Under the pieces are notes generated by a model. That model did not search any database. It worked only from the letters and a program-made list of their open reading frames with translations, and was not told the origin of the DNA. This document shows positions 1,918 through 8,047 of a stretch of DNA of 32,920 nucleotides, piece after piece. The position numbers were made by a program, and so were the translations under genes. Numbering within the stretch: the first letter of the stretch is position 1; each line of letters opens with the position of its first letter. Origin of the DNA: Clostridia bacterium. GTDB lineage: Bacteria > Bacillota > Clostridia > Oscillospirales > Acutalibacteraceae. The stretch covers positions 1-32,920 of the forward strand of contig JAGALQ010000049.1 in assembly GCA_017625095.1 (NCBI GenBank). Direction: 5' to 3'.

Positions 1918-2130
1918 TTATTTTTTCTTTTTCTTACGCTCGAGCTTAGTTTTGTTGCCCTTTTCGTCAACAATATAAGTCACGTCAAGCTGTGAAGTAA
2001 GGCTTCTCTTGAAAGAATCAATATACCTTCTTCTCAGGTCTGCACGCTCCTCCTGCTCTTCAGGCGTCAGCTCACGCTCACGTGCAATCCTTGTCAGCTC
2101 ACTTATTCTGTCCAATTCCCACTGTTCCAT
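1918..2130 (-). CDS. DUF896 (UPF0291, YnzC-like) small protein
   Basis: A 70-residue charged protein matching the DUF896 family of small Firmicutes proteins: an N-terminal helical hairpin (DRISELTRIARERELTPEE), then LRRRYIDSFKRSL and a lysine-rich tail. The family is known from Bacillus (YnzC, with a two-helix fold) and its function is not established. Here it is the first gene of a putative three-gene unit with two epimerase-like enzymes, although elsewhere it is usually found alone, so the link may be only transcriptional. The ribosome binding site GAGGT lies 7 bases before ATG, inside the 76-bp repeat unit. A diverged second copy of the same binding site and start region lies upstream. Confidence 0.8.
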   Translation of the reverse strand: MEQWELDRISELTRIARERELTPEEQEERADLRRRYIDSFKRSLTSQLDVTYIVDEKGNKTKLERKKKKK

Positions 2131-2281
2131 TTTTAATACCTCAATAAAATCGATTTACTATTCTGAGTTGAGACACCGAGGAGAGTTTCAGCCTCTGTCT
2201 TTCCGTTTTTGATACCTCAATAAAATTGATTTACTATTTTAGATTGAGACACCGAGGAAAGTTTTTTCCTCTGTCTTTACG
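2127..2281 (-). repeat. Two tandem copies of a 76-bp leader unit including a ribosome binding site
   Basis: Positions 2127-2202 and 2203-2278 align without gaps at a period of 76 bp with about 11 differences. Read on the minus strand, each copy has an AGACA...TGTCT hairpin with inner GAGG/CCTC pairing and a GG bulge. A 5-bp stem (TCAAT or TCGAT pairing with ATTGA) follows, then TTGAGGTAT and an A-rich stretch. In the gene-proximal copy this ends in the ATG of the DUF896 gene; in the distal copy the equivalent codon is ACG. Several differences keep the pairing, for example TCAAT to TCGAT through a G-T pair. Confidence 0.85.
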
Positions 2282-2301
2282 TATTTTAAATTTCAGACAA
2301 T

Positions 2302-2451
2302 GCGATGCAATCGCAAATCATGCAAAAAATTTGCAATTCATGATTCTTTGAATCAAATCATGCCGTAAGGCAAATCATAAAATTCACCTCTAAATGATTT
2401 GCTTCGCATGATTTGGCTTTCGCCATGATTTATCGCATAGCTCCGTGATTT
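2302..2451. repeat. Ladder of complementary 7-base boxes with mini-hairpins (multi-branched cruciform element)
   Basis: On the plus strand the left half has AAATCAT at 2315, 2355 and 2372 with a variant AATTCAT at 2335. The right half has ATGATTT at 2394, 2408 and 2425 with a variant GTGATTT at 2445. Box pairs 2372/2394, 2355/2408, 2335/2425 and 2315/2445 are nested and complementary. Between boxes lie small hairpins: GCGAT/ATCGC (2302-2314), TGCAAA/TTTGCA (2321-2335), GATTC/GAATC (2342-2354), GCC-GTAA-GGC (2362-2371), GC-TTC-GC (2401-2407), GGC-TTTC-GCC (2415-2424) and ATCGC/GTGAT (2432-2449). It lies inside the predicted transcript leader of the DUF896 operon. Clostridial genomes carry dispersed repeats of this general style; I cannot name the family. 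Confidence 0.75.
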
Positions 2452-2453
2452 GA

Positions 2454-2468
2454 ATTGATTACATCAAT
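2454..2468. repeat. Small palindrome ATTGAT/ATCAAT beside the ladder element
   Basis: ATTGAT (2454-2459) and ATCAAT (2463-2468) flank TAC. It lies at the 5' end of the predicted leader, about 17-30 nt after the likely transcription start on the minus strand. With the ladder and the tandem unit it means that nearly all of the 393-base gap 2131-2523 is palindromic or repeated sequence; no open reading frame in it looks real. Confidence 0.45.
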
Positions 2469-2491
2469 CCATTTTAATATTTTCTTAAATG

Positions 2492-5746: not shown

Positions 5747-7411
5747 TTATTCGTTCTCGCCCTTGATTGCCTTAAGGCGCTTCATAACATCGTTGCCGCC
5801 CTGACCGAAGTAATCGTGAAGAATCTTATACTCGGCATAGAGCTTATCGTAAATATCTGAATTCTCCTTGATGGGCTCATAGACAACGTCCTTGACCTTG
5901 CCCATAATGCTTGCGGCATAGAAAGCATCGTCATAGCCACCCTTTTCGCTGCCTGCGGCAACAGCGCCGAATATAGCTGAACCGAGTGCGCCGCCCTGGT
6001 CAGAGCCTGCAATCTTGATAGGCATCTTGATGATATCTGCATAAATCTGCATTGTCATCGGGTCTTTCTGTGAGATACCGCCTGCGGCGTAGAAAGAGTT
6101 GACCTCAACACCCTGCTCACGGTAATTTTCAATAATCATTCTTGTGCCGTATGCCGTTGCCTCGATAAGTGTACGGTAAATCTCCTCGGGCTTTGTGCGA
6201 AGTGTCATACCGACAATCATACCCGTAAGGTCAACGTCAACGAGGATTGAACGGTTGCCGTTCCACCAATCGAGTGCGACAAGTCCGCTGGCACCCGGCT
6301 TCTGTGCCTCACACTTGGAGCGAAGGAGCTTGTGGATATTGATGCCCTTTTCCTTTGCTTCTTCATAGTAGCTTGTGGGCAGGCAGTTATCAATAAACCA
6401 GCCGAAGTGATCACCGACACAGCTCTGACCTGCTTCATAGCCGTAAAGACCGGGCATAATACCGTCTGCAACAACACCGCAGATACCCTTAACCTTCTTC
6501 TCAACGTCTGACATCATCATATGGCAGGTTGATGTGCCGATAATGGCAACCATCTCACCGGGCTTTGATACACCGACGGCGGGAACAAAAATATGAGCGT
6601 CAATAATACCTGCCGCAACAGCTGTGCCGGGCTTGAGACCTGTGAGCTTTGCAGCCTCTTCTGTGATATAGCCTGCACACTTACCGCTTGCAAGCACCTC
6701 TCTGCCGAATTTTTCATCAATAACGTTCTCCATTCTGGGGTCGAGAGCCTTGAAAAATTCGTTTGAGGGATAGCCCGTGGTCTTATTCCACATTGCCTTA
6801 TAGCCTGCACAGCAGGAGTTGCGTGTTTCAACACCTGTGAGCTGCCATACAACCCAGTCTGTTGCCTCGATAAAGCGCTCTGCCTTCTCATAGATTTCGG
6901 GAGCTTCATCGAGAATCTGCCACAGCTTCGGAATTGCCCACTCGGAGGAAATCTTACCGCCGTAATTTTCAAGCCACTCCTCACCCATTTCGATTGCGAT
7001 ATCGTTAAGGCGTGTTGCGTGTGCCTGTGCAGCGTGGTGCTTCCAGAGCTTTACATAGGCGTGCGGCTCTTCCTTATACTCATCAAGGAAGCACAGCGGA
7101 GTGCCGCTCTTTGTTGTGGGGAGCACCGTACAAGCTGTAAAGTCGATACCGACACCGATAATATCAGCCGCATCAACACCGCTCTTTTTAATAACGTCGG
7201 GGATTGTGATGCTGAGCACGTCTATGTAATCCTGCGGGTGCTGAAGAGCCCAGTCCTGACCGAGCTTTTTGCCGCAGGGAAGCTTCTCATCCATAACTGC
7301 GTGGGGATATTCGTAAACGCTGCTTGCAAGCTCCTCGCCTGTTTCAACGTTGACGATAAGTGCACGACCCGAAAGTGTGCCGTAATCGAGACCTATTGTA
7401 TACTTTGCCAT
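5747..7411 (-). CDS. araB: Ribulokinase (FGGY carbohydrate kinase)
   Basis: A 554-residue FGGY kinase of ribulokinase length. The N-terminal phosphate-binding segment is [33 protein letters not shown] and [24 protein letters not shown] follow, a typical AraB stretch. The C-terminal FGGY signature is [20 protein letters not shown]. The expected reaction is ATP-dependent phosphorylation of L-ribulose to L-ribulose 5-phosphate in the cytoplasm. The arabinose isomerase and the 4-epimerase (AraA, AraD) are not in the window, so the pathway must be completed elsewhere. The start is supported by GAAAGG 8-9 bases upstream. A weak promoter overlapped by a 19-bp palindrome lies in the 93-base gap before it. 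Confidence 0.87.
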
Positions 7412-7458: not shown

Positions 7459-7487
7459 TATATAAAATGTGTTTTGAAAAAACACAA
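7459..7487 (-). promoter_or_regulatory. Weak candidate promoter for the ribulokinase gene
   Basis: Minus strand: TTGTGT (plus 7482-7487), 17 bases, TATATA (plus 7459-7464). The predicted start lies about 40 nt before the ribulokinase start codon. The boxes deviate from consensus, as expected of a regulated promoter, and the spacer is occupied by the palindrome at 7468-7486. Confidence 0.4.
7468..7486. promoter_or_regulatory. Perfect palindrome TGTGTTTT-GAA-AAAACACA (operator or terminator)
   Basis: An 8-bp perfect inverted repeat around GAA. It sits 18 bases downstream of the DUF4364 stop codon and covers the spacer and part of the -35 of the candidate ribulokinase promoter. It could be a repressor operator for ribulokinase. 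As RNA it could be an A/U-rich weak terminator, since TTTTATATA follows on the minus strand. The sequence alone does not separate the two. Confidence 0.45.
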
Positions 7488-7504
7488 ATCATGCAAAATT
7501 TATT

Positions 7505-8047
7505 TTACACTGTAAGTGAAGCTATGATGCCCGAATACAGCTTGATGGGGTCTTCATAGAAATTATTCTTGACCGTTTCAACCTGCATTTCGTCAGCAAC
7601 GTAAATCGTCAGCTTCATCATTTCTTCCATCGTGAAGGTTACGTGGAAGCCGCCGCCCTCAAGCTTTTCGACCTCAACCTTATTCTCACGCTTGCGCTTT
7701 GCAAGGGTGAGCATTTTTATTGCGGCGTTGATTGCCTTCTCCCTGACGGAGCGCGGAAGCTGACTCTCGAGCGTTTTTGAGGATGAACGACCCTTTTCCG
7801 TAACGCTGAGGTATTCCTCACACTCAATAAAATCGGAAACAACTGCACCGTTTTCGATAAGCTCGCTCACAGCCTGGTTGACCTCGAAATAATTTGCAAG
7901 CCCCTTATCAAGTGCAATCTCGCAGAGCTGACTTCTTGTTATTCTCTCATCCACACCTGCAAGCAGATAGCAGACAAGCACCTTTATCTCATTGCGTGAC
8001 CTGAGTCCGCCCGGCTCAATGCCGTCATCAAACGTAAAATTTTCCAT
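7505..8047 (-). CDS. DUF4364 family protein
   Basis: A 180-residue cytoplasmic protein matching the clostridial DUF4364 family: NEIKVLVCYLLAGVDERITRSQLCEIAL near the N-terminus followed by YLSVTEKGRSSSKTLESQLP. This resembles a winged-helix fold and suggests, but does not prove, DNA or RNA binding. A beta-rich C-terminal part follows (KVEVEKLEGGGFHVTFTMEEMMKLTIYVADEMQ). The function is unknown. GGAGG lies 8-9 bases before ATG, and the gene is 24 bases downstream of recD2, so it belongs to the same unit. Confidence 0.75.
   Translation of the reverse strand: MENFTFDDGIEPGGLRSRNEIKVLVCYLLAGVDERITRSQLCEIALDKGLANYFEVNQAVSELIENGAVVSDFIECEEYLSVTEKGRSSSKTLESQLPRSVREKAINAAIKMLTLAKRKRENKVEVEKLEGGGFHVTFTMEEMMKLTIYVADEMQVETVKNNFYEDPIKLYSGIIASLTV

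Follow-up and report, generated by a model that had tools for sequence, protein, structure and literature searches.

The element at positions 2299–2473 of the window (the whole 32,920-nt stretch of Clostridia DNA analyzed) is probably a single copy of a mobile DNA repeat that is interspersed, REPIN/BIME-like and non-autonomous. Copies of this element are dispersed and have fixed ends; their stems are conserved as structure and their boxes as sequence; they are present in some relatives and absent from others, differ from each other at the same sites, and decay. The original prediction, made from the letters of the window, had supposed that AAATCAT-type repeats might form a mobile REP-like family; a dispersed REP-like family was supported by our data, and we infer its mobility.

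Anatomy of the window copy and of the family

The AAATCAT-type boxes and mini-hairpins of the window were real and lay where they had first been noted, at 2302–2451. The element itself is longer than that and spans 2299–2473, because its ends had been overlooked: an AAT at 2299–2301 with a hairpin at 2302–2314 on one side, and a hairpin at 2452–2470 with an ATT at 2471–2473 on the other. The features are as follows.

2125–2289, minus strand: two tandem units of ~76 bp (TRF period 76, 2.2 copies)
2299–2314, plus strand: A end, AAT and the terminal hairpin GCGATGCAATCGC
2315–2378, plus strand: A half, four boxes (AAATCAT 2315–2321, AATTCAT 2335–2341, AAATCAT 2355–2361, AAATCAT 2372–2378) with three mini-hairpins between them (13, 13 and 10 nt)
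2379–2393, no strand: short centre of 15 bp, where long copies have at least one ~76-bp unit
2394–2451, minus strand: B half, boxes AAATCAC, AAATCAT, AAATCAT and AAATCAT with spacers GGAGCTATGCGAT, GGCGAAAGCC and GCGAAGC (in plus-strand letters, ATGATTT 2394–2400, 2408–2414 and 2425–2431, GTGATTT 2445–2451)
2452–2473, minus strand: B end, terminal hairpin and ATT (AAT on the minus strand)
7466–7501, minus strand: remnant of a second copy, with a mini-hairpin tail, one box ATGATTT, an A-terminal hairpin and ATT (limits counted by eye)

In the window copy, two boxes, one on the left and the outermost on the right, each deviate from the box consensus by one base. The spacers at 2322–2334, 2342–2354, 2362–2371, 2401–2407 and 2415–2424 are short perfect hairpins (2–5 pairs, by eye), and the spacer at 2432–2444, which reads GGAGCTATGCGAT on the minus strand, holds two Watson–Crick pairs and a tandem G.A, nothing else. 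The 150-bp stretch first noted was more stable than its shuffles (folding z −3.74 on the plus and −2.78 on the minus strand).

To describe the family, we compiled a catalogue of 103 halves or part-halves and 43 paired elements from fetched stretches of three genomes of the genus, each a different species (G000, G203 and G148). The half-finding script demanded at least 2 pairs per spacer, so that internal pairing in this catalogue is partly built in, and it left 7 of 86 ends untyped, the coordinates of which are rough. Paired elements measured 118–479 bp and fell into a compact class (118–182 bp, 17 of 43) and a long class (227–479 bp, 26 of 43). Each half is a polarised array consisting of a terminal hairpin followed by four AAATCAT boxes with three mini-hairpins between them, and the usual copy has two halves inverted about a centre. 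A typical A half reads AAT-GCGTTTT..AAAACGC-AAATCAT-GCAAAA..TTTTGC-AAATCAT-GATTT..AAATC-AAATCAT-GCCGTAAGGC-AAATCAT, and a typical B half AAT-GAATTGATTTATCAATTC-AAATCAT-GTTGC..GCAAC or GGAGC..GCGAG-AAATCAT-GGC..GCC-AAATCAT-GC..GC-AAATCAT. A hairpin class may occupy another slot; the B half at G203:C54:34355, for instance, carries GCCGTAAGGC. Spacer length ranged from 7 to 18 nt across the catalogue, and AAT preceded 74 of the 79 typed ends (A, 39 of 41; B, 35 of 38). In long copies, the centre is occupied by the ~76-bp unit seen at 2125–2289, which in those that were read had one orientation relative to the halves. The gene-proximal unit in the window ends in GAGGTATTAAAA-ATG, where the ATG is the start of the DUF896 gene and GAGGTATTAAAA resembles a ribosome-binding site; the tandem unit may itself be a structured leader. 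A similar unit lies ahead of another ATG, near 68250 of G000:C17.

A blastn search with the 150-bp stretch yielded 14 matches in its own genome; of the 11 genomes of the genus, five had matches (14, 28, 46, 6 and 5). A two-box pattern matched 40 times in the own genome, with no match for the reversed control, and a three-box pattern matched 21 times there and 35 times in G148, the reversed control giving 0 in both and 2 matches across all 200 genomes searched. In this family-level survey, three-box matches occurred in 8 of the 200 genomes, four of which (G151, G169, G184 and G096) by eye resemble coding or simple repeats. A class-wide survey with a GC-hairpin pattern was positive in 1 of 291 genomes, the own genome only. 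No match was found in the plasmid and phage collections searched, and among the matches listed for viral contigs, 0 of 120 had two neighbouring spacers forming stems of at least 3 pairs. Ten of the 43 paired elements crowd on one 111-kb contig, G203:C9. A search of the open-licence PMC literature returned no recognised description of the AAATCAT-box family.

Conservation and folding of stems and boxes

The mini-hairpins had been described as sharing pairing but not sequence, and this was borne out: the stems co-vary, as the tests on terminal hairpins show. Of the 1169 pairs counted in internal hairpins, 1150 were Watson–Crick, 5 G.T, 6 A.C and 8 other; counting ended at the first mismatch close to the loop, a rule biased towards Watson–Crick pairs, and 21 hairpins of the G.A type were set aside. 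The 13 distinct 18-nt B-terminal hairpins were 100% paired over 91 cells, versus 92.2% after shuffling, with 5 G.U cells and no A.C; their covariation score was 0.405, versus 0.225 when shuffled and at most 0.092 when slid, and 0 of 500 shuffles scored as high. Second sets were chosen blind to pairing, by taking whatever lay between AAT and the first box; an AAT of this kind was missing from three A and two B halves. Among 40 distinct A-terminal sequences, 184 of 199 cells were Watson–Crick (3 G.T, 3 A.C, 9 other), and pair 2 was Watson–Crick in 37 of 40, versus 19.7 when shuffled, with 0 of 500 shuffles as high and 11 double changes, a number that would be raised by any B ends that this loosely typed set may include. 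Among 23 distinct B-terminal sequences, 103 of 115 cells were Watson–Crick (6 G.T, 1 A.C, 5 other), and pairs 4 and 5 were each Watson–Crick in 21, versus 16.0 and 14.9 when shuffled (0 of 500 as high for each). These counts are not independent, because the hairpins share ancestry and orthologues were counted apart. Earlier, near-100% terminal pair counts were dropped, since those hairpins had been preselected for at least 4 pairs and the values were built in.

The boxes behaved differently from the stems. In 33 elements with four boxes per side, 36 of 132 opposing pairs contained a variant, and the same variant occurred on both sides in only 1 of the 36. Judging from these sequences, the boxes are kept as sequence and not as pairing partners, whereas the stems are kept as pairing; the nested complementarity thus follows from one word arranged in inverted orientation.

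This result bears on the stacked four-way ladder into which the nested boxes had been predicted to fold. With the box pairs enforced and the rest left free, the fold lay 1.9 (RNA, plus strand), 5.1 (RNA, minus), 4.3 (DNA, plus) and 2.7 (DNA, minus) kcal/mol above the minimum, and the inner mini-hairpins opened to give one long helix. The full ladder as drawn lay 18.2, 25.8, 18.0 and 20.6 kcal/mol above the minimum in the same order, a gap that is somewhat overstated because the drawing omitted the B-terminal hairpin and the one at 2432–2444. Nesting of the boxes is therefore energetically possible, but the full ladder is not favoured by these models, and the opposing boxes do not co-vary. To use the ladder energy alone as a case against nesting would be an overstatement, since box pairing without all of the mini-hairpins comes near the minimum, and for the same reason the whole element may, according to these models, have a folded role.

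We then considered the sense in which the hairpins are read. Read in the AAATCAT sense, distinct hairpins with 3–4-nt loops had GN(N)A loops in 17 and a TN(N)C loop in 1 of 53 cases in A halves, and in 20 and 1 of 44 cases in B halves. Since A and B halves lie on opposite strands, no single transcript carries both in the favoured loop sense. Sixteen distinct hairpins had the form (T/G)GAGC..GCGA(A/G), one of them having T and A substituted for the inner C and G and one ending in T; from their sequence, tandem G.A pairs are predicted to close them, on the AAATCAT strand only. GCGAAGC, one of the spacers of the window copy, is an unusually stable DNA mini-hairpin. RNA energies favoured the AAATCAT strand over the other by 26:7 (of 72) in A and 21:6 (of 59) in B halves, and DNA energies barely did so (20:14 of 72 and 17:5 of 59); a strong DNA bias of 86:1 and 62:2 obtained earlier was dropped as an artefact of dangling ends and rough A/B assignment. 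The choice of DNA over RNA is made by orientation and placement, not by the strand evidence alone.

Placement, probable movement and loss

The gap between the U32-peptidase and DUF896 genes contains the element in G000, G203 and G148, with 2, 1 and 3 of the 76-bp units, and the G148 copy has lost one box-hairpin module. The same gap is 3 bp long in G207 and in G202, 18 bp in G018 and 55 bp in G206; in G200, G205 and G204 it holds other sequence, 320, 424 and 543 bp long. In G201, where the script found no DUF896 gene, the 260 bases past the U32 gene are without an array. Nine other genomes of the genus had both flanking genes readable, and the element was absent in seven of them. Among the 43 paired elements, 35 have co-directional neighbours, with which the B-to-A reading agrees in 23 cases and disagrees in 12; 5 lie between convergent and 3 between divergent genes. 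The scoring used an automatic choice of ORFs that was wrong at least once (G148:C34:37545), and it counted orthologues apart. Conservation of place and orientation before a gene was thus not found, and an Rfam search yielded nothing at gathering score, its lower-scoring matches being at chance level.

These data weigh against reading the window copy as a structured RNA leader or attenuator that controls the DUF896 operon through nested box pairing, which we regard as unlikely. Its position between co-directional genes, kept here in G203 and G148, is consistent with such a leader, as are the box-paired folds close to both RNA minima, the RNA parameters that favour AAATCAT-sense hairpins, and the G.U cells in B-terminal hairpins that show no A.C. 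By contrast, the boxes lack covariation, the full ladder is 18–26 kcal/mol above the minimum, the locus is without the element in most readable relatives, copies occur in both orientations, the loop sense is the same in halves that lie on opposite strands, and Rfam gave no match at gathering score. The regulatory leader proposed for this site was therefore not upheld, and any effect on neighbouring genes would be incidental. Covariation and conserved placement had been named as what should be seen in related genomes: the former was present, in the stems, and the latter did not extend beyond three close species.

It is similarly unlikely that the element is a fixed, double-stranded array of binding sites for a chromosome-organising protein, with hairpins produced by replication-slippage correction of palindromes and not by mobility. 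Sequence-conserved boxes, near-perfect internal stems (under a pair-counting rule that favours Watson–Crick) and the crowding of elements on G203:C9 would fit such an array. However, spacers of 7 to 18 nt leave the boxes without helical phase, and the AAT ends, the presence and absence of copies, and the different copies at one site argue against it.

Returning to an interspersed mobile repeat, we compared copies at corresponding sites. G203:C9 and G000:C17 are largely collinear, and several C9 elements have no counterpart on C17. At two orthologous sites the elements were in opposite orientation, and their aligned bases had identities of 0.852 and 0.878. In 131 non-orthologous pairs, mean identity was 0.864 (sd 0.021, maximum 0.932), and nine hand-picked orthologous pairs in the same orientation, among the matches listed, had identities of 0.897–0.983; since 10 of the 131 non-orthologous pairs reached 0.897, identity by itself leaves some cases unseparated. 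In-place inversion of the whole element at the two sites was rejected, because those pairs were no more alike than unrelated copies. On these sequence grounds we prefer to see them as separate insertions at favoured sites; they may instead reflect replacement by recombination.

Loss was also evident by eye, as remnants in the window (7466–7501) and in G148:C33 and as a scar in G203:C9. The window remnant sits between minus-strand genes at 7505–8047 and 5747–7411, and full elements occupy the orthologous site in G148 and G203. Among candidate empty sites none was strictly clean, all having scars or small differences. Target duplication gave no signal over 43 flank pairs (5.93 versus 5.78, sd 0.18), 7 of which had one untyped and roughly placed end, and a possible 18-bp duplication at G203:C9:67912 was not upheld over all copies. 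A classical MITE of a DDE transposase is therefore improbable: the copies are non-coding with inverted ends and, when paired, 118–479 bp long, but they lack a target duplication signal, and their ends share AAT and a hairpin of varying sequence only, not a terminal repeat.

Counting against the mobile reading, neither a transposase nor an autonomous copy was found in the stretches fetched. Y1 (PF01797) proteins were encoded in 7 of 11 genomes of the genus, ladder-free ones included, and not in the ladder-bearing G207 (83% complete). None of the RAYT-like Y1 ORFs that were read was bounded by AAATCAT arrays (for the second set, within 250 bases upstream and 350 downstream), and one weak Y1 ORF in G203 lay ~1.2 kb from a ladder. 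A RAYT was thus set aside as the mobiliser, as it did not co-occur with ladders. In several RAYT-like Y1 ORFs (L101, L147, L150, L151, L288–L290 and L294), a stretch within the reading frame (VGGDALIAPQT or VGATLRGRPNN, for example) resembles a repeat read as protein, and GTAGGG-type palindromes occur in or beside L101, L291 and L292.

We propose that the elementary part is the polarised half, made of AAT, the terminal hairpin, and AAATCAT boxes alternating with mini-hairpins. A putative enzyme encoded elsewhere would recognise AAATCAT where the word adjoins a hairpin; in each half it would probably do so on the strand reading AAATCAT, in single-stranded form. By what we infer to be active transposition, this enzyme would carry the element from one intergenic site to another, leaving no target duplication.

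Known repeats and related box words

The AAATCAT family appears to work most like the REPINs described in the available part of PMC3116915, which are inverted doublets with compensatory change; an inverted doublet with arms kept by compensatory change is also what we found. According to the available parts of PMC3116915 and PMC3733652, REPINs and BIMEs, which are associated with RAYT, are likewise short intergenic palindromes in inverted pairs, head to head or tail to tail, with compensatory changes, and their supposed movement is in trans, as we propose here. The part of PMC3733652 available distinguishes two REP super-families tagged GTAG or CGTC and notes that G.T pairing is often observed. 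Unlike these REPs, the AAATCAT family has no GTAG or CGTC motif unpaired at the palindrome end, its ends being marked by AAT and its box being AAATCAT; no RAYT gene flanked by the same repeats was found in the flanks examined; a 7-nt word is repeated before each of several 7–18-nt hairpins; and G.T was rare in internal stems (5 of the 1169 pairs counted). BOX elements of Streptococcus pneumoniae, compared by their description in the available part of PMC3049150 only, are also modular interspersed repeats with a variable number of inner modules, but consist of boxA-boxB-boxC modules. The TAACTGA heptamer repeats of Beggiatoaceae also involve a 7-nt word repeated in intergenic DNA; they were considered and set aside. 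The description in the available part of PMC4679880 is of direct repeats of the word, with hairpin spacers unmentioned there.

If our interpretation is right, a tag-and-hairpin repeat design would be added beside the GTAG and CGTC REPs, one that cleanly splits a constant word from a variable hairpin, and it would point to a putative mobilising enzyme in gut bacteria. It would also be a warning that a DNA repeat carried as a passenger, and not a riboregulator, can underlie a nested and covarying fold upstream of a gene.

A stricter, de novo scan for repeated 6-mers with hairpin spacers recovered 34, 51 and 14 arrays from the contigs of G000, G203 and G148, with AAATCAT, ATATCG and ATATCA among the box words, whereas a sampled control for each contig set gave 0. 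In the window itself the scan recovered no array (control also 0), an absence that we attribute to the AATTCAT box and the 2-bp stem of the window copy. The ATATCG-box family is built on the same design as the AAATCAT family, and its arrays were found in 9 of 11 genomes of the genus, with 34 matches in G201, 83 in G202 and none for the reversed control in all 11. Among the matches listed, ATATCG loci mostly had their halves turned outward, two copies on G000:C17 being inward, and outward AAATCAT/AATTCAT arrays were present at six loci of G202 and G207. As with REP dimers, the occurrence of both arrangements points to the half as the basic unit. At ~122600–122860 and 123980–124250 of G000:C17 there are ATATCG ladders where G203:C9 has AAATCAT ladders, and a hairpin of the tandem-G.A type was seen in both the AAATCAT/AATTCAT and the ATATCG families.

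Tentatively, these arrays from gut Clostridia might represent one more super-family of tag-plus-hairpin mobile DNA, characterised by a 6–7-nt tag repeated before each mini-hairpin. Several dialects of the tag (AAATCAT, AATTCAT, ATATCG and ATATCA) would share the design and the intergenic spots in related species, and a putative new enzyme would move them as folded single strands. In a scan of genomes covering at least 118 stretches, filtered in two lots of 80 and 38, hairpin-spacer arrays were found outside RGIG6285 in RUG14159 (L164), RGIG5880 (L191), RGIG4012 (L249) and RUI438 (L254). The third box word, ATATCA(T), was seen with hairpin spacers at ~159–212 of G203:C9.
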